DNA of 64,000 nucleotides from Tigriopus japonicus. Its lineage: Eukaryota > Arthropoda > Copepoda > Harpacticoida > Harpacticidae. Where the stretch lies: NCBI GenBank assembly GCA_010645155.1, contig JAAGOF010000185.1:291274-355273 (forward strand), in the 5' to 3' direction. Under the pieces are notes generated by a model. The model was not told the origin of the DNA. It saw nothing but the letters and a program-made list of their open reading frames with translations, and did not search any database. Positions 1-53,377 of this stretch are shown here, piece after piece. Made by a program: the position numbers and the translations under genes. Every line of letters begins with the position of its first letter. The stretch's first letter is position 1.

Positions 1-3000
1 TCCAGCAACAATCCATGTGCTCTACTTGCAACGGATTCTCCGAACGTTGAACAACCTACAAGAAAGTTATTTCACCGAGGCTCTCGTCGATCCTAAACTT
101 GGAAACATTTCACAACCAAACCTCGCCTAGGACATAACCTCAAGTTCTCGGATACTCTTCTTTACCCCGAGTGTTTAGAGAAGAAAGACAAATGCATTCA
201 CCCGCCATCTCGCACCCTGAAACAATGGCCCTGGGGTGGTTAGTTGTTCAAACTCATTTTCCATGCTGAGACGTGAAAAGTCGTAGACGAGATTCTCGAA
301 CTTCGGACGGGTTATCCTTTAAAAGGGTTCGCTCGTAAATTCACGGTGTAATGAATGTCACTCGCTCTCAAGGAGAGGAAAAATCCCACCTCGCAAGACG
401 AAGCCTTGCGAGGTACTTGCACATACCAGATATAAGGCACAACCCCTTACCTGACAGCTTATGAAGCTAGTCCTCAAATCCCAAATCGATAACAGGCTCT
501 TAGAGGTTCACCTAGAAAAGATGGTCTTTTCCTCCCAATCTTGTCGTTGAAATTACGATATCTTCGCTGAATGGGATTATGCATGGTCTCGATTTGCGTT
601 TATTGCCATTCTCTAAAGTCATTCATGACTAGAATGAACCGTGATGATTGACATTGTTAAACCCTCAAGCTGACTAGACGATGGTTTGTGGTGTGGATCG
701 GGTCAGTTGGTCTTTTTGTTTCGTTATGTAACGGTGACTTCCATATTCGGTCATGTCGCCAAGAGGCCATTTGTTTCAGAGATTTTTCAAGCCGTTCCGC
801 GAGTCCAACGAGCCTATCGTCTCGGAAAGATAACCAAAGTCCAGGGGAGTTTGGTCATTTACTCGCGATTATCAGCTTTGATGGAGACAAAGTATTTGCA
901 CACAGTCCTCGTTTTCTCGGAGGAAAGCTCGGTTGGAGACCATCGTTAAGAAGATCATGAAGCATGATGGTGGCCGAGAACGATTTACAGAGGCTCTTGA
1001 GAGTTTCTCCAATTGTCCAATACAATTGGTGAACATAGAATTGGGTAATGGGTACCATTGCGACCAGTAGGATTTGGAGTAGAGGGAGTGTGTTTTAATT
1101 TGAGGGAATGTGGTTTGAAGAGAGCACGCGCGCCATCTGCCACGTGTTCGTTGAGGTTGACACTGACCAGATTGCCAGCACCCTCATTTTCTCACCCCTC
1201 TATTTGTTCTTGACTCCTGTTTTTTTCTCTGTATTTCGTCTTGACCTGATCATCAATTGAAGCCCTGAAAGATTCCAGTAATGATGAGTAAAAGTTGCAC
1301 AGGAAGTATGGACTTCCTCTCTGATCATTCATGATGATCCCGGTTCGATGATCTATGCGAGACCATCATCCACTTGTCAATTTCGTGGAGTGATCCAGAG
1401 GAAGTCTCCGACCAATTAAATCAATTTTCCCCTTGCCTTCTTACATGAATGGAATCTCTATTGCCACAAGTGCCATCCATGTAAGCATACGCCAAAATCA
1501 TCTATCCAGGACCTCACACGAACAAGGTCTTCTTCTTTCTCGGATCAAATACAAAGGCACATTCCACAATTATCAGCTCGCACATGTTTCACTCGGTAAT
1601 AATATTCTTCCCCAATTGGCGAAAAATGGAAGAATTTCCAAACGTCTCTTGAATGCATTCATTATCCGAAGAAACCCAAGTAAGGAAGGAAGGAAAGAGG
1701 GTCATTCTGAGTCGGTAATTGATTCCCCAAAGTTTTGTTTGTCTCTCCAAAGAGACGGGACAATTACCGGGCGATTCCGGAATTCCTTCTTTGTAAACTG
1801 AGCTTGTCCACGCGCACCTCAGATTCCTCTGGTCAATTCCGTTGTCGAGTCTCCAATGACACTTCTGAAGCCTTAATGTGACCCATGGGAATGTTGTTGA
1901 GTATGAATTTCAGCAACTGGCTTCCAAGTTCAAGTTCTTGCTGCTGGCCTGATGGACTGACAATTACGATGAAGCCACTCAATGATGCGCAAGTAAGTCA
2001 CGAGGAGGAAAAGCTTCCATCGGGCGCAGATATTTTGAATTGAACTTTGTGAGTGCATGGCTTAGTTGCTGTTGTTCATAATCCCATAGGGAGACATGGA
2101 TGCCAGATGACAGGAGACAGACTTGGCGACATGGCCTCGTTACAGTCTGCTGGGAAAAATCTATTAAAACTGCCTCATCTTGATGGGTGGAAAACAAGTT
2201 TCGTCGTTGTTTCCGATCCAGCTGCGGTGAAGCCTCGGGGTCATCTCTATGGTTTCGGTTGTTGTTGTTGTTGATGATGACGAAGATGATCATGATGAGA
2301 GAATGGCTTGGCCATCGCTCATTGCCCTTAACTAGATTCTCCTTGGAACGCCCACTTATGCTAGCCTCACATGCATACTCATGTTGTTCCGATGATGAGC
2401 GGACTCCTTTGGCTGCCAATTTGAAGCGCCCGGACTCGTCAACTATCTCATTGTGATGGATCACTTCAAGTCCAGAGATCAGAAGAGAATTCCTTTGGAA
2501 AACAAACACCTTCTTCGATTTCATGATGGATGAGATACGAGGCAAACGAGCGACCCTTTTTACCACCCTGGGAATATGTTGGCTCAAGAATGTCTTGGCA
2601 CCAAGGAGTTCTTTTAAAACGCCAGATTCAAAAAGAGAGAATGGGACTTTTCGGAATGATGTCGTTGGATGTGTCATGAGGTCCATTCGATTCGCTCTAA
2701 CGAGCCGGAAAACTAATTTGGAGAAATGGTTGGTTCCCCGTCCATGACCTCGAGTTTTGTCCTTCTTGATACTCTGCGGCATTTTCGGGTTCCAAAACCC
2801 CAATGTTGTTGCAATCGAATCGGAATTGAAATAAATGCATCTTCAAGGAAAATGAGGAAAGGGAGCAACCAATGGGGTTATAACAAGATTATGATCCGAC
2901 AAATGGAACCAAATGCGAGAGCGGCTTTGGGAAATTGGCGAAAGAGAAGAGAAGAGGGAGAAGAAAGTCACTCATTCACTCTTTGGCGAGACCAAAAAGG

Positions 3001-10045: not shown

Positions 10046-11455
10046 CAATTAAAATTCTTCATATGCCAGGGAGATGTACTTGCAGAGGGACAAAACTCGG
10101 CATAATTCATGGGCTAAATGTTCATTACTATCTTTTGCTTCTTTCCTCTTGTTCCGTCTTTTTTGAGCCAACCATTTTTTGAAATACGACCCCTATTGCA
10201 AGGTTTGCATCAAGGGTTGAGCCATGATTGAGTGACAATCATTGTTGTTGTATCTGGTTGGACCACTTGAAATCCGAGACATGTATTCACCATCTCCTTC
10301 CAATGATCCCGCGTTTGGTTATCCTCTCCACGTGCCGAACTAGTCTTTGAACGTGTTAGTCAGTCTAATTAAGATGACTAGAATTTCCTCGTTCACATTT
10401 GGCTGGATTGTTGATGGAGATGTTTTCTTTTCTGGTTTTCCCCCCATCTCTGTCGCACTTATATTATTCCTCTTCGGTCCCTCGCCTTCATTCGGGTGAC
10501 CACTGAGGCGAGTGACAAAATAATCTTTTTGGAATGACTTCCATTTGCTCACATTTTCTTTCTGCCCTCTGCTCGCCAAAGGCAGGGGTAAAAACTTAAT
10601 CCGAGTAATGCACTTCATCCCTGTCTTTCTGGGCTTCTCCATTTGGGGTGGAGGAAGGAGGGAAAAAATCATGGCTCTGGCTTTAAGTTCAGGGTTCCCG
10701 CCTTCAGGGGTGAAATATCACGTCCTTTCCAATGCTTAGAGGGGTGCAAATGTTCTCAAGGAACCCTGCTGCTTTGAAATGTCATTCGGAACCCGAGATG
10801 TTGTTCATTTTCCAAGAGAGTTACTCTCAACTCAGGAGCTCGAGAGCGTAATAATGTATCTGTCTCTATGTAGTCTGGTGTTTTCCGAACAGATCCTAGT
10901 TGAGCAAATGGGAATTCGAGGGGTTGCTTCCTGCTCCCTTAGCCTACGTACGTAGAAGGTGCTCCCATAGCAAGGAATAGAAATACCACTAGCGCTCTCA
11001 GATTTGCCTGTTCCTGGTCCAAAGCTTCCCCTAATCTCTAAAGGGACAACTGTCAATAGTTTGAAGACTGACGAACCCATTGTGCTCGATTCTTTAGATT
11101 GCAAATGTTCAAACTGCAAGTTTATTGATGTTAATGTGTGGGTGTTCCATAAGGTACTGTCATTAACAATACCTTACAAATTGGCCATTATTTTCATTTT
11201 AACAATAACAATTAACAAATTCTGTTAATTTCATGTATTCTTTAGCTTTCACATAATGTAATTCCGTATTTTTGTGACAACTCAAGTTTTAAGAACCGGA
11301 CTCAGTCTGCTCAAATGCGAAGTGCTCCGCAAACTTTTACATGAATGTATGGAGGGTGATTTTAAAGGATTCCCACTTGAGCCAAGATAATTAGATTTCG
11401 AATCCTCCCTGCCATTTTGGCACTATCAAGCACTCAAAATGTACTCTTTCCACAG
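10046..11455. other. No gene seen; upstream of first BEACH exon
   Basis: This stretch precedes the acceptor TTTCCACAG of the first neurobeachin exon found. It holds the 12-base palindrome CTACGTACGTAG at 10944-10955 and nothing else that I recognise. Confidence 0.5.
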
Positions 11456-14400
11456 CTTCGATCATGTTCGCGTTCCAAGACCAAGCTACGGTGAAAAAGG
11501 TCATCAAGGTCCTTCCTCGGGTTGGAGTGGGCATCAAATATGGGATCCCACAGACTCGTCGAGCGAGTCTTATGTCGGCCCGACAACTTTTCCGGGCTTC
11601 AAATATGACCCAAAAATGGCAACGACGTGAGATCTCCAACTTTGAGTACCTCATGTTTCTGAACACGATCGCGGGTCGAACCTATAACGACTTGAATCAA
11701 TATCCGATTTTCCCTTGGGTGCTGACCAACTACGAGGACACTGAGATCGATTTAAGCTCACCCAACAACTATCGAGACCTGAGTAAACCCGTGGGAGCAT
11801 TGAATCAATCTCGACGAGAGTATTTCGAGGAGCGCTATAACACGTGGGACAACGACCAAATCCCGCCGTTTCACTATGGAACACATTACTCTACTTCGGC
11901 CTTTGTCCTCAACTACCTCTTGAGATTGGAGCCTTTTACTACGATGTTTTTGGCCTTGCAAAGCGGAAAATTTGATCATCCCAATCGATTATTTTCCTCC
12001 GTGAAACGAGCGTGGGATAACTGTCAACGGGACACGTCAGATGTCAAGGTAAGATCAAGATTATTCGATATTTTTTTATTAGGGCGCATGTTTACTGTTC
12101 TATTTCAAATAAATCAAGTTTGCCAAAATCAAGTCAGATTTACCGTTCTTAATGTGTTTGAAATCCAGCAATTGCGTTGAGAGCACAATCAAGGGACGTT
12201 AAAATTGGCCTTATGTTAACGAAAATTAGATTTATTCTTGAGTTTACCGAAATCATATCAGGTTAGGCCCCAGCTGCTGCGTTTGAAACACAGCAGCTGT
12301 CGCGAGGCCCGTTAATCTGACTTGATTTTGGTGTACTTTGAAATAAATCTTATATGCGTTAACATGCGACCCGTAGACTTGGTTTTAGTACACCCCAAGC
12401 TTTTCGATTTTGTGCACTTTAAGCACCTTTTGCTGGGTTTCATTCCAAAACATGGTATTGGGTGTAACAGAAATTCTCAAGTTTCTCCCTGCCATTCTTC
12501 ATAGTTTAGGTTTCCAAGAGCGCATCTGAAACTGAAACCAAACCGGAAATTTCAGCTAAAAACTTTATAAAAACAGACTCCAAGAAACTTTATCGTTTAC
12601 ATCGTTACATTTTTCGATGGCTCGAAATTTAAGTCATAGTTATCTTTCTTGGATTGCAACTGCACCTGTTAATGCCAAAAATAAGTGACCTGGAATCTAA
12701 CACAAATCATGTTATTCTATTGTGTTTGAAGGAATTGATACCGGAATTCTTCTGCTTGCCCGAAATGTTCGTCAATATGAACGGTTACAAATTGGGTCTA
12801 CTGGAAGAAGGTCAAGGTGTGGATGATGTGGAATTGCCTCCATGGGCATCCACGCCCCACGAATTCGTGAGGATCAACCGACAAGCCTTGGAATCTGAGT
12901 TTGTATCCTGCCAAATTCATCAGTGGATAGATTTGATCTTTGGATACAAGCAACGAGGTAAGAAGAAAGAGAAGATGAAAAAAAAAACTAGATTCCGCTG
13001 TAAATTGATTTTTGGTTCAAGAGAAAACAAGATCTTTCAACACAAAGTCACTCACTTTCCCTGACCCAGAAACTTTGAACTTTGCACGCCATAAAGTTTT
13101 TTTTGCTAACTACTGCTCTACGCACATGTCCAATGGTACAGAGCAATATCAACCCAAAAATCTGAATTCAATACTTTAACAAAAGCACCCTGAAATGTAT
13201 TTTTCAACCTTTTTGGGGAGGCTTAATCACAGGTTTTGCAATGCAATGTTATATCTGCTTAAAAATCAATCAAATATTAGGGTTGTTCTCGCAAAGTTTT
13301 ATAACAGTGGTTAAAGTGTATGTAATCATGATAATTGCCATGTCGAAAGGTTGATCTCGTGCAGAACAGACCATCCCTTTTTGGTTCAAGGGTTGGTTTT
13401 TCTCCAAGAGAAGCTATCATCACCATCATCAACGCCCAACTTGTCAACGTGATATTTGGTCAGCAAAAAACTGGAGGCGGATTCAGACTAATCATGGTTA
13501 TTACTATATTGCCGTCGCCTTGACGCATGGTCAGACTGACAGATGTTGTTTCACATTGAAGGTCAACGAAAGCGAAATGAGACTCATGGATATGCTAGTC
13601 AATTGATAACGAAGCCCTAAAAGTCGAGAAAATTAATTTCAGTGCTGACGGACGCGCTTTGTGGCATGTCAGATCAGAATTAGATGAGTCGACTTGATCA
13701 AGAGCTCATCTCGCAAGTCAGGCACGCCCTGAATTCCTTTCCTTGTTGTTCAATCTTTATCTGCGTTGAAAACCTCCAAATAGTTGATTTTCATCGCCAA
13801 CATTGAGTGTGTTTGATGACAGAGTAATTTGTAGCGTTTGGCTTCCCATGAGAATGAGAGTTGAAATCAATTCACAGCATCCACATCTTCACACATTTGT
13901 CTTTTTTTGTTATTTGTTTCAAGTTTTAAGTGTTTTGGAAATTGCTCAGCCATTGGCTCGTACGCTCAGTACGTCGACCTTTGACACCTCGATTCCCTCG
14001 AAAATTATTATTTTTTCGTCAATACTCGGCTGAAATAAAAAAATGCATCAGTGTCGGGCGAGACGAAGTCGAGGTTGCGTTTTTATTGTGAACCAACTCC
14101 GACAGTTTAAATTGCAACCCATTGGATATTCTCATCGTTTTATTAAAAGCACGGTGGCACAGTCAAGTGGGATGTAATAATGCAAGGATCTGTGAATAAT
14201 GTTATCTGAAAGCATCCACACTATTCTTTCCATTTTTCGAGTTATTCCTCAATCTAGGGATTTTACACACTAAAAATTAATTTCGTTTAATTCTCTAATC
14301 TTTTCAAATTCAAAAACGTACATAACTTGTAGAAGGTAAATCTAGCTATAAGTAACTTCAACTTAATGCCGTTGCGCATAAGTAACAATCGACTAACATT

Positions 14401-17400
14401 CTTATGTTGAGATCGTTGTTCAGAGAATAATCAGAAGTCGTTTGAAGTTTTAAAACTACATGAAAAATGCAATCTAAAGCTTCGGTAAGGAGCAATTCCA
14501 ATCCCATGAGTTGACCTAACTTAGACCCAAAACTTCAAAATAAGTACAGGAACAACCTTTGGGCATGTCTAATTTGTGTTTTTCCACTTCAACTAAGCCA
14601 GTGTTTGGCCTTATTTTCAGGTCCCGAGGCAATCCGTGCCACCAATGTCTTCTACTATCTCACATATGAGGGTAGTGTAGATTTGGAGGCCATGACCGAT
14701 CCCGTGATGCGCGAAGCAGTGGAGAATCAAATCAAACATTTCGGTCAAACACCCTCACAACTCCTCATGGAACCCCATCCACCGAGAAGTTCAGCCATGC
14801 ACTTGGTATGTACTCACTCCTGTATTAATACCGGATTACCATCATGAGTAAGATCTTCATTGGCAAACTGTTCCTCTTTTCAGTCACCAATGATGTTCAC
14901 GCCTTTACCGGATGACGTCTGCATGATCATGAAATTCTTGTCGAATTCGCCCATCTGTCACATCACGGCCAACACTTTTCCGCAGCTCCCTTTGCCCTCC
15001 GTGGTCACGTTGACGGCAAACCATCATTTCGCCATCAACCGGTGGAATTCCTCGTATGCAGGTATTGATGGACAAGTTCGTTCTAAGAAGCTTGCCTCGT
15101 CCTCCGCCTCCTCGGCCACACCCTCCCAGTCACAACAGCAGGGTGGGCCAGGGGGTGGAGGAGGCTCCCATAGCCAACTCCAAAGTGGCGCCTCAGGAGC
15201 TCCCATGAAACCCCAATCGACCCAACAACACCATCCAACCAGTACGAGTTCGACTTCCCAAGGTATCTTTTTTTCATGTTTGTTTATTTCCTTCTGTTTT
15301 TCACTCTTTTTGGTTTGGTTTTGTCGGTTCCATTTTTTCCGCGTATTTTTGGTTTGGGTTAACACGTTTTCAAGGGGGGGGGCATTTTTTGGGTATTCAT
15401 TTCCACTTCACCCGGTTTATTTTCTACTCACTTCCACTGGATTCTTATGATTCTTAAGTCACTCACTCGCACTGGGATTCAAGGTATACATTTCCAACCA
15501 TAACTAACGAATAGATCACACTCATCCCGCACCCTGTTTCAACTTGTGTAGTCAACTTTGCACCACAAAAAGGGCATCTCGAACAGATCAGATCGTCTCA
15601 CTGTCCGTGTTGTAATCGTGTCGTCACACGCACAAACTCACTCTACAGGGTTCGGCCACAAAAGCTCACCAACTAACATAAGGGTCAATATTACAGGCCT
15701 TGTTTTTAATATTGCTTAACCAGCTCGCAATAATTATGAGATGTGCTCATTTACCATGATTTTGCTCCCTTGCTTTAGCTCCGTCCCAAGCCCCTAGCTA
15801 TGCAGAGTCTCAGAGTCCTTCTCCTGGAGCCGCATCTCTGCCTTTGGCCATGGATCCCATTTTGGCAGTGGTGACTAATGCTACCGGTCATCAAGTCCGT
15901 CGGCACCTGGGCGACAATTTCAGTCAACGTGTTGTGATGAGGCATAGTTGCTTTGTGGTAACCGTGGATAGCCGGTTCATTCTCGCTTGTGGCTTTTGGG
16001 ACAACTCCTTCAGGTAGGACATGTCAGGCTATTAGTACTGTGATAAATTAATCGGAGATGGAAATTGTTAATTATCTTCCTTTATTATTTTCTTTATTCA
16101 TTTTCATCTTCATTCACCTTCATCTTCCTTTATTCATTTTTTTTTAACTTTTTAGAGACCATTGAATCACGTTTGTGTTTGTAGAAATTTGGGCTTGGCC
16201 AACATAAAAATAAATACTGAAGCAAAGAGCGAGCTTCACAAAGCCAAGCAAGCAATTCATGAGCGCCTTAGTTGACAAAAGCTTAAGCAAAAAGGTCTTC
16301 CATGCATAATTTTTTTGAAAATGTTCATCAGATGCACAAAATATGACACAAAATATGTTAAGAGCACTTTTTCCAATTTTTGTGAGTCTCCCTAACTACA
16401 AAAAGTTTTTCAATGACACTGGTATTCTTCAACTTTTTTGTCAACTTTTTACACAATTACCAACTACAAATTGACCCTCTGGAGATCAATTTCAACCCAA
16501 AACTAAACCGTGATCTTGAATTGGATAGGGTGTTTTCTGCGGAATCGGCCAAGATTGTCCAAATAGTGTTTGGCCACTATGGCGTGGTCACTTGTCTAGC
16601 TCGGTCCGAGTGTAACATCACCTCAGATTGCTACATTGCCTCTGGATCCCAAGATTGCACCGTCCTTTTGTGGCATTGGAATGCCCGCTCACAAAGCATT
16701 GTGGGCGAAGGTGACCAACCCACACCCAGAGCCGTCCTCACTGGTCATGACCAAGCTGTGAGCTCCGTTGTGATATCTGCCGAACTGGGTTTGGTAATCA
16801 GCGGATCCACAGGTAATTTTAATGTCAATTTTGGGATGGTTAAAGCAATCCCAAGACATACTTCATTAAATTCTATAACTTCAGATGGACCAATTTTGGT
16901 GCACACGACGTTTGGAGATCTCCTCAGATCCCTTGACTCTCCTGAAGGCCTGACAGCGCCTCTTAACATTGCGTTATCTAGGGAAGGTTTCGTGGCAGCT
17001 CACTTTCCTGGCGGCCATGTGGTCTCTTACACGGCTAATGGCTACAGACTCAGACACGAGGTTCATAACGATAAGATTCAGGTAAACCTACAAAAAATGT
17101 GTCTTGTTTTTAACACCGTCATCAAAGCCTAATTCTTGCAAAACAACACGTGGAATTGCTGTCTCCACGTCAGCTAAAGTTCAAAACGGAAAGGGAAATC
17201 GCACAAGTGGTCATTACCGAACCCCTTTGATCAACTTTGCAATTAAAACCAAATTGACCTTCATCAAAATTTGGCCAAAGTTCGGTTTCTTACTTTCATG
17301 AAACTTTCATGAATCATGAAAACTGAAAAGGCAGGAGGTGGGCTAAGGACAAATAATTCGTCTTGATTCCAACATACTCAAGGTTTTCCTCTGAATAGAG

Positions 17401-38013: not shown

Positions 38014-41000
38014 TCACTCTTTGGCAAGGAACAACAACTTGTTGCTGAATACTGTTAATTCCGAGACGTCATCACCGGTTTGAGTGGGGTTCCCCCGATC
38101 TTTGTGAACTTTATTGATGATTGTGAGCTTTTCGAGAAGGGAAGACAGTTCGTCATGGATATGCGAGTCCCACTTAATCACTTCTCCATCCATGGGTTTG
38201 GACTTCATGTGCTTCATCCAACGGCAAGGATTTTGGCTCTGCCGTTGGGTTTGCGCCATGAACCAGCTTAAATGAATGGTTTGCGGGTAGAACGTGGCGA
38301 GGAATTTATCCAGAGCGATGCTGGCTCGAAATAGATGGTGTTGCTCCTCTGCATTCTCACTGACTTTGAAGTAATTTAACGTCTTCTTGCGAACCAAGAT
38401 TTCAAATTGAAAATCTCGTCTTGGCAACTCATTGTCATCGTGACTACCTGAACTATTACTACTGGCACCACCACCATTGCTTGTAGTATTACTTGAGCGA
38501 AGCAGAAGGAGATTTGAGGTCACCAGGTGACTCAACCAAGATGGTCGCAGAAGGGATAGGTGAGTGTACTCTTTTCTTGGGTCGAGTTGGACTCTGGCGA
38601 AACTCAGGGAGAGACAATGAGCAATTTTGTACTTGAGAGCTTCTCGTCGGTGTAGAAAAGTCAATTTCACGTCTCGGTCCCGCACCGAAACCATCATACC
38701 AAGCATGGCGATGAATCTCCAATACAATTTCCATACTTTTGGGTCCGAGTAGATTTGGGTGTCAAACTGTTGGAGAAACTCTTGCAAGTGTATCTCGATA
38801 TTGGTGTCCTTAACGAAAAGGTAAAATATCATTGGTTTACTCTCAACCAACTTGGCACCATGGCCGTGTTTCAACCAGTATTCAAAGTCTCGTTGCAAGC
38901 AAGTCAATATGATTTGCAAGGCCAGAAGGGGTTGTCCTGAGGACGCACCACTAAAATAGTCGCTCCAAATGTCGCAGAAGAACTTCCAGAATGATAAATC
39001 ACCCTCAAAGGTCTGCCTATAATCCTCGTCATGACACCATCTGAAGATTGAGAGGTAATATTTGCGCGCTATTGAGCTCATGGGCGCATGTTGGTGTAGA
39101 ACCCGAGTGAACAACTCAAAAGCAAGTTCGGACGCTAATTCAGGGTCCAAATTGGGTTTGGGCTTTGGTCTGAGGATCAAGTTGACCAAAAGATAGTTCA
39201 TGCTCTTGGCTCTTGGATAGGTATGGAGATTCACAAAGCCCGTAATTCTCAACATGACCAAGAACACAGCATCATTTTCAATTTCCTCGCTCTTCAACAT
39301 GGAGAATGAGGTGGAGTCCGAAAACACGTCCATTTGCATGGCTTGTTTAGAAACGGCTTTGGCAGTTGTCATGTCTCCTTTAGCGTCATATCGAATAGTC
39401 TTTTGGCGAATGTTTTCAAACTCAAGACAGTCGTTGTGGTCCTTTTGTCTCCGAAGAAGGGTTCCAATGACCTGTTTTAACGTGTACGTGTCGTCCAAAT
39501 TAACTTGACAATCAAGTTGTTTTTGTAGCGTTTTGGCGGGTTGTTTGGCCAATGTTTTGGGTTTCTCTGTAGGTAGTGGTTTGGGTGCTTTTTTCAGAAG
39601 CCGTTCGGACACATGTTTGGAAGTTTGTTTTGGCGGCTTTTGGGGCAGAGCTTCCGTAGATGGCCTGTTGGAGGATGTTTTAGGGAAGTCGGTCGTTTTT
39701 CTGAGCTGAATATCGGTAGCCTCTTTTCTTTTTGGCACTTGAAGATTATCTTCCTTCCTAACTTCAATGGCAGTCGTTGCAACGGCAGGCATTGCATCAA
39801 TTGAGAAAGACTTTGTACTTGTTTCAATGGAGGACGCAATTTGAGGTGATATTTCTTCGTTAGATTGGAGAGCAGGGGCCTTTAAGGGTGCTTCCTGCTC
39901 AAGTATTGGTTGACTAGAAGAGCTTGAGGGAAAAGTTTCACTAGGTACATTTTCCTGGTTAATTTTATCACAAGGCAACTCATTTGAAGTCATAGTTTGA
40001 AGTGGAGGACTGAAAGGAACAGTCTGACAAGGAACTTCGTTATCCTGACTAATGGTATCACGAGGTAATTCTTGTGTAATCATGGGTTGGTCCAAAGAAC
40101 CGTGAGGAGGATTCAGACTCGGAGTTTCATCCTCATCAGTTGTTATTGTTTCATCAGGGTCAGAATCACTTTGAGGCGAGGTAGTGCTGGTGATGATCAT
40201 CTGATCACTCATTTCACTATTAATGGTCACCACTACTTGCACTTCATTTACTGTATCCGAGCTTGACACTACATGTGGAGGTGAAACTTGGACCTGAGGA
40301 TCATCAGAGATCTCGATGATTGAAGGTTGATCCGTACTTGCTTCCACTATAACTTCGTCATCATCGTCCTCCTCCTCTTCCTCGTCAGAGATGCAAATAA
40401 CATCAATAGGTTTGGATTTCTTCCGCACGACCAAACCCTGTGGGCCAGATATAGACATGATCTGACACTCGTTATCACTATCATGTTCAGAATCGGTCCC
40501 ACTATCCACAATAGTAACCCAATCATCAGACTTGGCTATTTTGGGGGACTCTTCATCCGACGACATATCCAGACACACTATTTCTCTTTGTGGCTCGGGC
40601 TCTATTGGTTCTGCTTTTATTCTTCGGTGAATCTTTCTGTTTACTGGTGCCAAAGTTTCTTGAATTATTTGAATGTCTGAAGGGCTGGTGTCATCATCAT
40701 CACTATCATCAAGGGTCACCACTTCACTGGCTCTTGGCTTCTTGAGTTGGCGATGTCTAAGAGACGAACCTTTTTTCCGTTTTGTTGTAGTAGACGGATG
40801 AAGAAGTTCGATGACATTTGCATTATCCAAACGGAACTGATGTGTTAATGAAGATCTGCTCTTTAGACATGGATTTCGGATGACTTGAACGATATAATAA
40901 AAGGAAAGCACTTTAATTGGCCACTTCAACGCGGCACGGGAGATCATAAACAACTTAAAATTGGGATCCTCTTGCAACGCGGGTTCCGTGAAGATGAAAT

Positions 41001-41877
41001 CAAGATTGTTCAACAAGTGCTGCGAATCGATGGTTCGAAATCGTCCGGTGTTTAAGGGGAGAACCGTGGCACCCCCTGCTTTAAGAAGCGTGTAAAAATC
41101 TAGATACTTCTTTTGATCGTTGTTAACCATCAAAGTCACTCTCCAATCTTGGAACATGGGGCCTTTGTTCACTTCCTTGACAAACTTGTAAGCATTGTAC
41201 GCTGGTTTGGGCATGAAATTTTGAATGTCCTCCAAGAAGTGCCCTAAAAACAAACATAACCCATTTCAATTGCAGTAAACAAATTCTCGATTTACAAAAA
41301 CCATTGATTTCAAAACAAGAATCTGCTAAATGGTCAAAGGTGGATAAAAGAATATTGTCAATCAACACCTACATTACTTGAAAATCTAAATGATTCTTTG
41401 ATCAAGGAGCGTTAGAAACTGAATGTAAATTTCAGTCAGGAGCAAAACTATTTCAAAGCAAAGAGTTACTTAAATATTAGTAATAAAAACTCAAGTATTC
41501 ATATATCCAACTGTAACTGACTTGCACCTAAACTAGTTAGCATCACACAAAATTGTTAAAATATAAAAGTATCTCGAACCTTCTTTGAAGCTTTCTTTGA
41601 TATAATCCGGACTCAAAACCAATTTCCCACAAGCCATAAAAGCCAGGGGTTTGGGCGTCAGAGTCAAAATATACTCCCATGAGTTGTCCTTGGACCATTT
41701 CTTGGGGCACTTGATCAAACAATGAGTGGACCGCTCCAAGAATGATCCTCTTTCTTGTGGCGATACTTCCACCACAACGCCTTTAAGCGCCAAAATCATA
41801 TCTGTTAATTCTGCAATCTCAATTGGGTCGAAAACACCGGAGAAATAAAATCGCCGGTGTTCGTTATCACTCGCCAT
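38014..41877 (-). CDS. BRCT-SIM-helical protein, SLF1/SIMC1-like candidate
   Basis: Exon 1 is 41877-41580 and exon 2 is 41243-38014, with a 336 bp GT-AG intron splitting a glycine codon. The product has 1175 residues, with ATG at 41877 and stop TGA. Residues ~8-100 and ~128-220 look like two BRCT domains: CGKLVLSPDYIKESF ends the first, and DWRVTLMVNN..LLKAGGATVLPL starts the second as in SLF1. Residues 274-414 hold five SUMO-interacting cores, VVTLDDSDDDD, IVCLDMSSDEES, VTIVDSGTDSE, VICISDEEEEEDDDD and IIEISDD. Residues ~420-685 are disordered, with a basic Lys/Pro-rich end. Residues ~686-1175 are predicted helical (MNYLLVNLILRPKPKP, FWKFFCDIWSDYF). In vertebrates SLF1 (tandem BRCT) and SIMC1 (SIMs) share an Nse5-like helical domain that binds SLF2 and recruits SMC5/6. 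A similar nuclear role is inferred here. No ankyrin repeats are seen, unlike SLF1. The gene structure is firm; the family assignment is moderate. Confidence 0.8.
40300..40722 (-). other. SIM array coding segment (residues 274-414)
   Basis: Five hydrophobic four-residue cores (VVTL, IVCL, VTIV, VICI, IIEI) occur within 141 residues. Each is followed by Asp, Glu and Ser, the pattern of phospho-regulated SUMO-interacting motifs. A sixth weaker candidate, CQIMSIS, lies between the third and fourth. Such density suggests binding to poly-SUMO chains, as known for RNF4 and SIMC1. Confidence 0.7.
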
Positions 41878-42179
41878 TATTAACTTTTGGCGTTTAACAC
41901 TTAAAATTCACGCTTTCCACTGTTCCTTAAACCTGTTTTTGTGAATTCTGTCAGTTTGCTCGCGCTTGAAACTCGTTTTAGTTGGAAGCTTTGTATATGT
42001 TTTGGAAGCCTCAAAAGGGCGGGAAGTTTGAATGAGGAAGAGCAAAGTGTGCCAGAGGCTATTCTAATGGAGAAAGTATGTACAGATCGTTGGAATTCGC
42101 TATTCATCCCAGTTGTCTCGAATTGCTGAAGTGATGGTAATCTTTCGCACATTCAAAAATGAAAGTCGAGCTGTTTTGT
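41878..42179. other. Upstream region of the BRCT-SIM gene
   Basis: This stretch separates the BRCT-SIM start codon from the foldback element at 42180. It should hold the promoter and 5' UTR, but I see no clear TATA box. A 62-codon plus-strand frame starting at 41941 is divergent to the gene and has no recognisable content. Confidence 0.4.
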
Positions 42180-43049
42180 ATGGACATTAATCCACACGCA
42201 CTTTCCTCTCGGAAGGGTAGCCATAATTTGCATATCAAAATTGTATTCAATCTGACCCACTTTAGTCACACTCAATTCGAGCGAAACAAAAACAAAATGT
42301 GACAGTTATCTTTTACTTGAACAGACCTAGAGGAAAGGTCGTCCTTTCACTCTAGCACACGTACGTCGTCTATTTTAAGAAAGGGACACCTGAAGTAGTA
42401 TGGACAGCCAAACATGGAGCTAAAGTTAAGGTGTTGGGTTTGAAAAGTTTAACTGTTACAGGCTGACTGTATAAATTTTAGGAAGTAAGGAATGGGAAAC
42501 TAAATACGGTTGATCCTGCATTGGCTTCTCTTCATTTTTGCTGGCATTAAAATCATGATTCTTGGAACCATTCTAAGTACCTTTACATTTTGTATTGTTT
42601 TCACTCCATTTCTACGAGAACTTTTGAGATTTCTAATCTAATTTGTCAACCTGTAACAGTGAAGCTTTTTAAACCTAACATCCTCCCTTAACTTCCTGCT
42701 TGGCTGTCCATGCTACATAAGGTGACCTTTTCCTGTTTTTTTAAATATTTTGAATACCAAAATCCCGTTATCTGTTAACTGACCATACAAGAACGTGTCA
42801 TGAATGAAATCATATATTATTTAACTTACGCTCTTTTGGCTTATTGCCACTTTTTGAACTGTCTGTAGTTCTATCCATGCTCAAGATCCTCCAAGAGGTC
42901 ACTCAGAAGCAATCTCATATGGAAATCAGAAACATTTTGTTGTTTCGCGAGAAATGAGTGTGACTAACGTGAGTCACATTAAACACAATTTTGATACGCA
43001 AATTATGGTCACCCTTCCAAGAGGAAAGTGCGTGTGGATTAATGTCCAT
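42180..43049. mobile_element. ~870 bp palindromic (foldback) element
   Basis: The left arm, about 42180-42475, and the right arm, about 42645-43049, are imperfect reverse complements. Shared blocks include TGGACATTAATCCACACGCA, TTTCCTCT..GAAGGGT, TTTGCATATCAAAATTG, TGGACAGCCAA and CTGTTACAGG. The termini read TA-TGGACATTAATCC and GGATTAATGTCCA-TA, which would fit a TA target duplication of the Tc1/mariner type. The loop at 42476-42644 has no transposase. Arm identity looks roughly 80-85% by eye. Confidence 0.75.
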
Positions 43050-43945
43050 AGCTGTTTTGCTCTGGCCAATTATCACTATCTCAGTTTCTCTCCTCAATGG
43101 ATCTCTCGTTTGATCTTTAGGCTTGAGCTGAAGACAAACTTGGAGACTTGAGATGTTACTTAATGAGGATTTTACCTGCTCGTCTTGGTTCTGACACGAG
43201 ATATGACGAAAACCATCTTTGTGTGTAGATCATAGCTCAAGTTCTTTTGGTGTGCAAATGAAACTTGAAAAACGAGGAGTGTTTAAATATTCATAAAGTC
43301 GCATCAAGTCCTATTTCCGGAGTGAAGTATGTTCAAAAACTAGTTTTAAATGCTATCCATTTACCCGCTAGTTTAGAGCTCATGAATCATGTTCCTCTCC
43401 GTAATTACTCTTCAAATTGAGTACACAAAATTGCATGACAGCTAGAAAACTTGGTAAGATGCTGGCTGGCATTTAAGGCATTAATGGTTTTATAATCTGG
43501 TTGTGACCTTCACTTTGCCATGATGTTTCATAAGGATCAGAAAAGCTACCCAAGGCTTTTATGTAAAACAGGGTTGCTTGGCATTGAGCCCTGTTCATGC
43601 GTGTTTGCTCCTATCAACCAACATCCAACGGAAAAAGATAGTCTGATTGACGAATCTTCTCCAAACAATTTGGAACGTAAATGAAATGGAATGGCTGGCT
43701 GGTGGGAGAGCAACAAGATAATGACTGCCATGATGACACTCCTCATCAGCACGCTTTAATTTATGATGAGAAAAATGGCAAATTGAAAGAAGTCAGGAAG
43801 TAGTGAGTGAATGGCAGGCCACTAGCTCTCATCCCAGCTGTCAAGAGATTTTAGGCCAATGTTGACTAGAAACGGGCCCCACAATCGTTTTACGCCTTCT
43901 TACGCCCAACAAAAGATACCAAATGAGTTCGAGATGAGAAGAGGT
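43050..43945. other. Intergenic, no gene seen
   Basis: Nothing is recognisable apart from the probable 3' end of the Cys-rich peptide gene near 43900-43945. Confidence 0.5.
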
Positions 43946-44302
43946 TTAATGTCGTTTATTTCTCTGATATAAATTGTCATGACCCAGTTCATCCCAATGG
44001 AGCCTCTCAGATCCCGAATGACGGCTTCTTCTCCGCCGGTTAAAGGATCGTCCATGACGCCTGTGAGAATATTTCCGTTCCAGAGGAAACTCGCAACAAG
44101 TTCCCCTCCAAGGGATTTGGCAGCAAAACAAGTTGATCCTCTTCTCACAATTTTGGCACTCGGCGTCAGCTGTCGAACTTTGGAGAAGAATAACAAAGAG
44201 TGAACACAACACGAGGAACAGTGACAACCCAAAAAATGCCCTCGGGTTTGATTGGCTTGAACCCATTATGTCTCTTAATGACAATTCAATGTGATGATGA
44301 GC
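43946..44302 (-). CDS. Small secreted Cys-rich peptide, unidentified
   Basis: The frame from ATG at 44266 to TAA at 43946 encodes 106 residues. Residues ~11-33 (FFGLSLFLVLCSLFVILLQSS) form a strong signal peptide. The probable mature part begins near DAEC. Six cysteines are arranged C-x2-C-x7-CC-x7-CC at 37, 40, 48, 49, 57 and 58, around QIPWRG. The tail is Arg/His-rich with several basic processing sites (RHGRSFNRRRR, QRNKRH). TTGATTGCAG just upstream is a good 3' splice site, so a 5' UTR exon probably precedes 44302. It could be a neuropeptide-like hormone, an antimicrobial peptide or a cuticle-associated peptide; I do not recognise the family. AATAAA overlaps the 3' end of the frame. Confidence 0.55.
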   Translation of the reverse strand, partial: AHHHIELSLRDIMGSSQSNPRAFFGLSLFLVLCSLFVILLQSSTADAECQNCEKRINLFCCQIPWRGTCCEFPLERKYSHRRHGRSFNRRRRSRHSGSERLHWDELGHDNLYQRNKRH

Positions 44303-46565
44303 CTGCAATCAAAAATGTTAAAAATCAGCGTCAAGAATGATTGGGGAAAAACATATTGGCTCATTAGCTTTGACAAGCGATTGATTAGAATGCAGTCAGC
44401 GGGAGTCATTCCAAGACGTGATTTGAAGGTCAAGACGACCTTGTTGTTAGATCAAGGTGTTAAATTAATTCCTTCACCCTTAGTTTTGGTGACCATGATT
44501 TCAATTACCAAGCAATTAGGAGGGTGAACCTCGGCCTTCACAATATAAAATCAAAACATAATAAACCGTGAATAGAGGAAGGAGAAATTTAAGTGTTTTA
44601 ATTTCCGAGATCTACCCACGAGATTTGATTCGAAGTTGTTCGGTTGGACTTACCTTTTAGACTTGAGGCTGGGCTGGTGTTGTTGATGACACAATTAATA
44701 GTAGAGTGAAATTCTGAGAAAATAGACGAACTCGAGATCCATTAAGTGAATCACGGCTTTCAGATTGTTCCGATGATCACGATTTTGAAAAGGCCAAAAG
44801 AGCTCTAATGCCTCTCGAAGATGAACCTCAATTGATTTCGCTCTTAATGATTTCTCCATATATATGAAAGAAAAAAAGAGATTCGTCTCCTACGCTTTGT
44901 GAAAGCCGGCTTGTTCTTCGATTTCAGTAACTCATCGTCATTTTTTTCTCTCATTTTCAAGATCAAACCACTGTAAAAATGTCGATAGGCCCACTGTTCA
45001 AGTTACTTCACAGGCCTACTAAGCTTTGCTTAAATCAGTGCCTAAAACGCGGGCTAAAAATGGCCAGGTTTTACTTTACGGATAAGCAAATTCGAAACCG
45101 GATAGGTGCAGAATAACCAAGAGGAAAATGCTTCAGTGTGACATTGATAGTTTCGTCCGTCGTCGGTGGTAATAATTAGTGTGGCAATGAATTGAATAAA
45201 TGGAGGCCAAGATTATGAACGACACTCTTGAATCCTTATGCAAGTAGGTGAAATGACTATTTAGCAAAGGCGTGGGATCAAATGAACAAAGGGCAAATTC
45301 ATAGTTCACGTCATGGCGCGAATGTTAAAAAAGAAACCTTTTCCACTTGTCTTATGTTTTTGGTCCCCCACTCGACAACTTTGCATACAATCGATAGAGC
45401 GAGAAACCTTACCTGAATACGTTAGAAAATGACAAAAAGAACTTTCATTTTTTTCTTCACGTTTGAGCTCAGAGGGTCTATTTGTTCAAAAAATGAAAGC
45501 TTCATTTCATTTCGACGTGTGTTTTCGTCAAAGACACCATATGATTTCGTGATGACATTGACAGCGATTCATTGAACTCATATGCAGGGATGCTCTAGAA
45601 AATTTCTTTAAAATGGCTCAAAAGTCTAAAGACCTATAATTTCAACTACCTTCAAGTCTTTAAATGTTCATTTGGTTGAGTTTACGAACTCCAACCGATG
45701 AAAAAAACCATGGAAAGCACTGTTGCCTTCTGAGAGATCTTGTATGTGGGAGCATTGGTGGCGAGTTTCTCAATTTCACGATAATAAACAATGACAACTT
45801 TAAATCCCATTGAAACGGAGTTAGTGAAAGCTTTAATTTCAATTTCAGTTTAATTTGTTTTGCTTTTTCATTTGTTCACTTTTGATTATTTGTCATGTAT
45901 TGTTTTCGCATATAATCTTGGTTCAAAAACGTCGGCAATAGCGATTATTCTGCAAAAGATGTATCAAAACTTGGGTGCCCGTGCAAAAAAGACCTGGAAT
46001 AGCATAGTTATAAGTTTTATAATTGATAGGATAATATATTTCTAAAAGCTTTGTAGAAACCGACACAGTCCATTTTTGTAAAGCCAAAAGAGACTCTCTC
46101 ATCTTCAAAGACTGAGAAAATAATGGAAGTGTAAATTAAAGGGACTCCCCATTTTTGAAACCACGAACAAGATTGAGTTGTTATATGAAGGTAGACAAAA
46201 CTTTTTGTATCAAATAGATACCTGAAGAGTTAATTGGTTGTATCGGTTATCAAATGACCGTATGTTACCGTTAGCGAAACGGTGAAAGAAAAACTGATGG
46301 GATCAATCACACGGAGACATGGCTGATTTCCATTCCGATATTAAAACCTTAAACCTTTAACCAAATATAACTTTACCGTCAGTCAAAGGAACTTCTGAAC
46401 ATCCATTGTTGCTCTCGCGATTTGCTGGGAAGCAAAAAATATTACCAATTCATATCATCGAATCGTAAGGAAGAACACGAAGATCTAAAAAATATTGAAG
46501 AAATATTTGAATTTTTTTGAGGTTTTGGCCACATTTTACTCTTAATTTTCATTGGTCATTAACAG
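44303..46565. other. Intergenic, no gene seen
   Basis: No supportable gene. It should include the promoter or 5' intron of the Cys-rich peptide gene on the minus strand. Confidence 0.45.
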
Positions 46566-52077: not shown

Positions 52078-52630
52078 TTACGTAATAGGTTTGAAGAGGG
52101 TGGCTTGCTCCTGTCGTCCTTATCTTCTATGCCTTCATTCCATTCGAACGTCCCTTCGCTGAGCTTGAAGCAACTTGTCATGCTTCTTCTTCCACACGAA
52201 CAACGGCGTTTCGGAACAGAAGGAATATACTAGGAGCCTTAAGAATACGTTGAGATTGCAGCCTACCCATGTAGGCCTCCCATACATGGACATCGTACTA
52301 AAGTTGCCTGGCTCCCATGACTAGTTGCCTGACGTTATCGTCGCCGTCGACGGCAGTGAAACCGTGCTTAACGTCGATAATGTCCAAAAATCTCTATCAA
52401 CATGATTACCAGGAACAGGCAACAGGCATGGCGAGTAAGTAAGCACGGCAAAGGCAAGTAGGCACGGAGCAATTTTCTCAGTTCTATTATTTTTCCCACT
52501 GATTCTCACTACATACAAGGAGTTGCGAACTAGCTGACGTAGCGAACGGTGCTTTGAAACAAGAGATCCGGAGACCGACACTCACTTCAATTCTTCATAC
52601 CTACTCGAATCCTTTAGTGTGTGAATCAAT
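52078..52630 (+). promoter_or_regulatory. CLIC upstream region and 5' UTR
   Basis: This stretch precedes the CLIC start codon. TCAGTT near 52479 resembles an arthropod initiator, and CTGACGTAG near 52532 resembles a CRE half-site. An in-frame TGA at 52622-52624 fixes the ATG at 52631 as the first usable start. I cannot tell whether a 5' non-coding exon lies further upstream. Confidence 0.35.
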
Positions 52631-53377
52631 ATGGGTGAGACCGAAGCCATCCCCGAGATTGAGCTCATCATCAAGGCTTCCTTGATCGACGGCAAACGAA
52701 AGGGTGCGTGTATTTTCTGCCATGAATACTTCATGGACTTGTACCTTCTTGCCGAACTCAAGACGATCTCCTTGAAGATCACCACGGTGGACATGAAAAG
52801 ACCACCGCCAGACTTCCGAAGCAACTTCGAGGCCACGCAACCTCCGATCCTTATCGACAATGGCCAGGCCATCCTGGAGAACGAAAAAATCGAGCGGTAC
52901 ATCATGAAATCGATCCCCGGTGGACACAATTTGTTTGTGCCAGACTCTGAGGTGTCCAAGAAGATCGAAAACCTCTACAATCGCTTCAAAGTGGCCCTGG
53001 TCAAGAAGGACGAGGCTTCGCGGAATCGGATCACCTCGCTCTTGACCGCCATTGACGAGGAATTGGCCAAGAAAGGCACCCGTTTCCTTACCGGAGACAC
53101 GCTATGCTGCTTTGACACGGAACTCATGCCCAAACTGCAACACATCAGGGTGGCCGGAAAGTTCTTCTTGGACTATGAGATCCCCAGTCATCTCACCCAT
53201 TTGTGGAAGTATGTCAAGGAAATGTACGAGTTGGATGCATTCAAACAGAGCTGTCCGGCCGATCAGGACATCATTCACACGTACAAGATGCAACAACAGC
53301 AAGCGGGGTTCATTAAAATGAAGAGTCACGAAGAGCTCGAGTCCCCCACAACAACCCTGAGTGTTCCTCAACATTAG
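52631..53377 (+). CDS. Clic: Chloride intracellular channel (CLIC/EXC-4 family)
   Basis: CLICs have a glutathione-S-transferase fold with glutaredoxin-like oxidoreductase activity. They are soluble but can insert into membranes, and in worms EXC-4 controls tubule formation. The 248-residue product matches the family length. Residues ~7-100 form the thioredoxin-like domain with the active-site pair C27-x2-C30 (GACIFCHEYFMDLYLLAEL), TTVDMKRPPPDFR, and ATQPPILIDNG with the cis-proline. Residues ~110-225 form the all-helical domain, with GTRFLTGDTLCCFDTELMP, LQHIRVAGKFF and FKQSCPADQDIIHTYK. The CxxC pair is typical of invertebrate CLICs. The coding sequence is uninterrupted in the genome. Codon use is GC-richer than the surroundings, as in a well-expressed gene. 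Confidence 0.95.
   Translation: MGETEAIPEIELIIKASLIDGKRKGACIFCHEYFMDLYLLAELKTISLKITTVDMKRPPPDFRSNFEATQPPILIDNGQAILENEKIERYIMKSIPGGHNLFVPDSEVSKKIENLYNRFKVALVKKDEASRNRITSLLTAIDEELAKKGTRFLTGDTLCCFDTELMPKLQHIRVAGKFFLDYEIPSHLTHLWKYVKEMYELDAFKQSCPADQDIIHTYKMQQQQAGFIKMKSHEELESPTTTLSVPQH

Follow-up and report, generated by a model that had tools for sequence, protein, structure and literature searches.

The window analysed here, 64,000 nucleotides of the copepod Tigriopus japonicus (contig C23, positions 291274-355273), carries on its minus strand a two-exon gene (41877-38014) encoding a protein of 1175 residues. This protein is best read as a divergent SLF1-type Nse5-like subunit that is free of ankyrins and carries a SUMO-reading array. 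Exon 1 (41580..41877; all parts of the gene are on the minus strand) encodes residues 1-99 plus one base of codon 100, the first, starting with an ATG and ending at a GT donor that reads GTTCGAGATA. Exon 2 (38014..41243), defined by its reading frame and by a match to the sequence P0002, covers residues 100-1175 and the stop, with a ...TTTTTAG acceptor preceding 41243. Between them lies a 336-base GT-AG intron (41244..41579), deduced from the sequence, across which 41877-41580 would be spliced to 41243-38014. The frame of 1175 residues contains no internal stops, and the clean two-exon gene claimed in a preliminary description of this DNA is borne out by its ATG, its GT-AG borders and this stop-free frame.

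The closest relatives of the protein come from the same genus. P0002, an unspliced open reading frame (ORF) of 1097 amino acids on another contig, reads through the intron into exon 2 and differs from the window protein at 17 of 1076 residues. TCAL_11755 of T. californicus (P0003, 628 amino acids) shows 84% identity over the C-terminal query, and it lacks the BRCT and SUMO-interacting motif (SIM) parts because its annotated start falls at residue 448 of the window protein. This gene model is probably truncated or split. Searched against the T. japonicus genome (194,852,151 bases), P0003 matches the window gene only. Besides a pair of Tigriopus sequences, protein-database searches returned a single frog SLF1 and no invertebrate relative from outside the genus; one of these searches was blind to proteins shorter than about 646 amino acids, so that a split T. 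californicus BRCT model would escape it, and another, set for long relatives, excluded vertebrate SLF1s of normal length as well. In the annotated SLF1 of the frog Rhinophrynus dorsalis (P0004), residues 797-875 resemble a reverse transcriptase (PF00078), which probably reflects a faulty gene model that took in a transposon from an intron.

The N-terminus contains two BRCT-like domains, as the preliminary description had proposed. BRCT1 (residues 8-106, 41224..41856), recognised by PF16589 and by BLAST and MAFFT alignments, is split by the intron, with exon 1 holding most of it, including S13 and G14; BRCT2 (residues ~129-225, 40867..41157) is recognised by Pfam, a PDB search and alignments to SLF1 and TopBP1. 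The matches to PF16589 (residues 8-106, E 0.01) and to PF23294, BRCT_TopB1_SLF1 (residues 130-161, E 0.0091), both lie under the Pfam cut-off, while the PDB sequence search returned TopBP1 (E 0.0056) and SLF1 8IR2 (E 0.0073). In the phosphate pocket, S13 and G14 are aligned by MAFFT with Thr13 and Gly14 of SLF1, with threonine replaced by serine, and K76 (41652-41650) aligns with K56 of SLF1 by BLAST and in one MAFFT alignment; the second MAFFT alignment, which is the one aligning S13 and G14, gaps the K76 stretch. These matches give good support, at the level of sequence, to a tandem BRCT that belongs to the SLF1/TopBP1-BRCT7-8 class and keeps the pocket residues. The ligand of the tandem BRCT in vertebrate SLF1 is RAD18.

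Five hydrophobic cores, each followed by an acidic or serine run, form a SIM array at residues 274-411 (40309..40722): VVTL at 274, IVCL at 321, VTIV at 342, VICI at 381 and IIEI at 408, with weaker SIM-like cores at 290, 397 and 434. A fixed motif rule applied to residues 261-460 finds seven SIM-like sites (274, 290, 321, 342, 379, 408 and 434), a count reached by 0 of 5000 shuffles of the same residues (mean 1.40, maximum 6), and elsewhere in the window protein it finds one more, at residue 70 in BRCT1. The five SUMO-interacting cores described earlier are confirmed by this excess, and the array is well supported as a sequence feature, from which SUMO binding is predicted. It is followed by a fast-evolving linker (residues 461-690, 39472..40161), presumably disordered, as judged by composition and by the T. 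californicus alignment, in which 52 of 144 aligned positions of residues 446-690 are identical (36%) and 101 residues are gapped. The linker had been described as basic, which holds for residues 600-690 (20 K/R against 9 D/E) but not for residues 461-600, which are acidic (25 D/E against 6 K/R).

The C-terminal half (residues 691-1175, 38017..39471) is a probable Nse5-like alpha-solenoid, a reading that draws on helices in structure models, conservation, weak SLF1 similarity and matches to the SIMC1 structure 7T5P. Identity to T. californicus reaches 87% (286/327) over residues 691-1017 and 83% (105/127) over residues 1048-1175, far above the 36% of residues 446-690, and the helical half is therefore a constrained domain. 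A profile of the human and frog SLF1 solenoids scores the C-terminus at P 5.5e-4, with the reversed sequence at -2.2 bits, and its score is reached by 10 of 2000 residue shuffles (1423 listed) and 9 of 2000 block shuffles (1566 listed). Profile-profile scores against SLF1 lie 2.8 to 3.5 standard deviations above column shuffles in four settings. The similarity is concentrated at one motif (residues ~807-834, ...FELFTRVLHQHAPMSSIARKYYLSIFR, 39040..39123), aligned to SLF1 ~465-494. A search whose profile included human SLF1 itself was for that reason excluded from the evidence. Aligned by MAFFT to frog SLF1 at full length, the protein was misaligned, and that alignment was kept out of folding; a shared 'DYW'/'EYW' string was rejected since its spacing did not fit.

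A Pfam scan of the 1175 residues up to E 10 gave no ankyrin match. The alignment places a Ser/Asn/Gly-rich loop (residues ~1018-1047, 38401..38490) roughly where the ankyrins are inserted in vertebrate SLF1, a position that is approximate; because of this placement, the SLF1-type solenoid would be uninterrupted by ankyrins, as in SIMC1. The helical, ankyrin-free C-terminal half proposed in the preliminary description thus stands as regards ankyrins, while its helices are seen only in low-confidence models.

Structure prediction, which had been suggested as a check of the C-terminal fold, gave a divided answer. Both AlphaFold models, though low in confidence, build the C-terminal part largely from helices, and VIA-align places SIMC1 7T5P among the listed matches for both, tied with unrelated solenoids; among the best 50 VIA-align matches listed per model there is no Nse5. 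An Nse5-like C-terminus is graded as probable but only moderately supported, on sequence and models together.

Several results weigh against this assignment. Both models are weak, with a mean predicted local distance difference test score of 44.9 and 58.7 and a predicted template modelling score of 0.46 and 0.55; 33 matches outrank SIMC1 in one model's VIA-align list, and its registers disagree between the models (751..1040 to 430..858 in one, 754..1018 to 467..732 in the other). The best Foldseek E values are 0.86 and 0.15, and SIMC1 and Nse5 are absent from the best 50 Foldseek matches listed for either model. Adding the last part of SLF1 to the solenoid profile lowers the score (P 8.7e-4), and the profile-profile score is reached by at least 1 of 60 column shuffles in three of the four settings and by 2, 1, 0 and 4 of 60 block shuffles across them. 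A strict-gap end-to-end alignment with SLF1 scores 57 against 52.3 +/- 15.5 for shuffles and 62 for the reversed sequence, and is equalled by 99 of 300 residue shuffles and 183 of 300 block shuffles. The pairwise Smith-Waterman score of the C-terminus against SLF1 is reached by 3 of 500 shuffles, or 6 of 500 when the last part of SLF1 is included, and hhalign against SLF1 gives a probability of 2.1 and an E value of 0.022. A Pfam search of residues 746-1175 found no match, and at the N-terminus human TopBP1 BRCT7/8 scores equal to SLF1, so that the two are indistinguishable by score. Apart from these results, PDB sequence searches with exon 2 and with residues 746-1175 gave no match, PDB profile searches with SLF1 alone or with Tigriopus plus SLF1 gave no credible match, and a PHROGs search gave none. 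The lack of a sequence match to SIMC1 7T5P is uninformative, because a profile of SLF1 alone misses 7T5P too.

Known adaptors of SMC5/6 provide the frame for interpreting this protein. According to two publications (PMC9708086; PMC12656486), SLF1, which has the BRCTs, brings human SMC5/6 to DNA lesions, and SIMC1, which is linked to SUMO, brings it to extrachromosomal DNA; SLF1 and SIMC1 bind SLF2 in a mutually exclusive manner. In vertebrate SLF1 the ankyrin domain (726-935) interrupts the solenoid, and SLF2 binding survives in an SLF1 construct from which this domain is absent (PMC9708086). The copepod protein shares with vertebrate SLF1 an N-terminal tandem BRCT with pocket residues, a middle region and a helical C-terminal half, the first part of the SLF1 solenoid being weakly similar to it; it differs in giving no ankyrin match and in its SIM array, compared with a single site by the same rule in human SLF1, at residue 413, where the solenoid begins. 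With SIMC1, whose description in PMC9708086 covers SIMs, a disordered N-terminus and an Nse5-like domain and mentions no BRCTs, it shares SIMs ahead of a helical, ankyrin-free domain and the structural match to 7T5P, whereas its tandem BRCT sets it apart. In yeast (PMC9708086, PMC13167486), the Nse5/6 dimer is placed by phospho-reading BRCTs and Nse5 is tied to the SUMO pathway; the logic of a BRCT-placed dimer with a SUMO link is the same, but the yeast BRCTs sit on a separate protein, Rtt107/Brc1.

On balance, we consider that the window protein corresponds in the copepod to SLF1 and serves SMC5/6 as a regulatory subunit of the Nse5-like kind, an assignment that seems probable though far from secure. 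Its C-terminal helical solenoid would pair with an SLF2/Nse6-like partner and thereby hold SMC5/6, its tandem BRCT would bind a phosphoserine ligand through the pocket of S13, G14 and K76, and its five-SIM array would bind poly-SUMO or multiply SUMOylated proteins. Together, the BRCT and SIM inputs may place SMC5/6 where damage phosphorylation and SUMO marks coincide. The Nse5-like fold, the partner, the binding to SMC5/6 and all these binding activities are predictions. The preliminary description had proposed one protein with SLF1-type BRCTs, SIMs and an Nse5-like tail; its BRCT head and SIM array hold, while the similarity of the tail is weak.

Among the alternatives, the one that survives best, although it remains clearly the less probable, holds that the protein is an SLF1 orthologue with no dual reading, its SIM array having been gained incidentally and its ankyrins lost secondarily. 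It has the same family assignment as the copepod SLF1 counterpart preferred here, and the likelihoods of the two overlap and are not exclusive. Acidic regions yield SIM-like strings by chance (the shuffle mean of 1.40 per 200 residues), and P0003, which starts past the array, gives no cross-species comparison of the SIMs; the observed site count is nevertheless far above the shuffles (0/5000). Between the window protein and the nearly identical P0002, 1 of 151 residues is changed at 268-418 and 0 of 42 at 419-460, against 10 of 230 in the linker and 4 of 485 at residues 691-1175. The low change in the array relative to the linker hints at constraint on it, the contrast within the genus being not significant at 0.05 (Fisher p 0.056).

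Somewhat more doubtful still appears an adaptor that reads phospho-ligands with its BRCTs and SUMO with its SIMs, but whose helical C-terminal repeat has no relation to Nse5 and which recruits a target other than SMC5/6, such as a ligase or a replisome factor. The generic solenoids RRP12, HUWE1, karyopherins and CRM1 outrank SIMC1 in the structure list, model confidence is low, and the end-to-end SLF1 alignment is no better than controls, all of which suit this explanation; against it stand the SLF1-like motif, local profile scores mostly above shuffles, and an N-terminus that independently falls in the SLF1/TopBP1 class while TopBP1 is another gene. The weakest alternative, a fragment or derivative of the copepod's own TopBP1, is highly improbable: human TopBP1 BRCT7/8 resembles the protein as closely as SLF1 does (E 0.0056 against 0.0073) and belongs to the same tandem BRCT class, but TopBP1 has many BRCTs, of which BRCT7/8 are the last, whereas the copepod protein has only two BRCT-like regions, at its N-terminus, and a remainder unlike TopBP1. 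Best matches to TopBP1 devoid of SLF1 similarity had been raised earlier as an adverse outcome; TopBP1 does score equally, yet SLF1 is matched as well.

The combination of BRCTs and SIMs in one probable Nse5-like protein departs from the known adaptors, whose Nse5-like domain is accompanied by either BRCTs and ankyrins (SLF1) or SIMs (SIMC1). The available portions of the literature on arthropod SLF1 and Nse5-like adaptors describe no protein with BRCTs and SIMs, and those retrieved by a literature search hold nothing on the window protein or on arthropod SLF1. A single protein with both readers would show that the split between SLF1 and SIMC1 is not universal, offer a natural test of whether phospho and SUMO inputs act jointly, and give a starting point for the evolution of Nse5-like subunits in non-vertebrate animals. 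A bolder proposal, which we regard as speculative and rather unlikely, is that a single Nse5-like protein fills the roles of both vertebrate adaptors in copepods and perhaps across the protostomes, reading a phospho-ligand with its BRCTs and poly-SUMO with its five SIMs in a two-signal loading of SMC5/6. SLF1 and SIMC1 would then each represent one half of an ancestral protein that was duplicated and divided in the vertebrate lineage.

Elsewhere in the T. japonicus genome, TopBP1 is likely a separate gene (L011). Frog SLF1 gives 38 matches to the genome (35 of 159 first-look candidates were scored), of which 37 fall within its ankyrins and one within its BRCTs, the latter being likely TopBP1; the missing second SLF1 is weak evidence, because the same search missed the window gene itself. 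Nse4_C, of a core SMC5/6 subunit, matches two loci over the cut-off, L003 (contig C2, 68.8 bits) and L004 (contig C4, 67.6 bits), and the copepod may have two Nse4-like kleisins.

Within the window, an element resembling a miniature inverted-repeat transposable element (42179-43050) lies just upstream of the gene start, with 114-base inverted arms that are 89% complementary, 644 bases between them and further inverted pairs inside. A short ORF on the minus strand (43946-44308), with a hydrophobic N-terminal stretch and a Cys-rich start, is possibly an exon of a secreted peptide; Pfam gave no match for the overlapping frame 43903-44265. On the plus strand, 52625-53377 encodes a CLIC-like chloride intracellular channel/glutathione S-transferase-fold protein (PF22441, E 8.2e-14), and 11395-12180 and 16386-17132 match BEACH (PF02138, E 7.8e-64) and WD40/neurobeachin-propeller domains, probably as exons of one neurobeachin-type gene.
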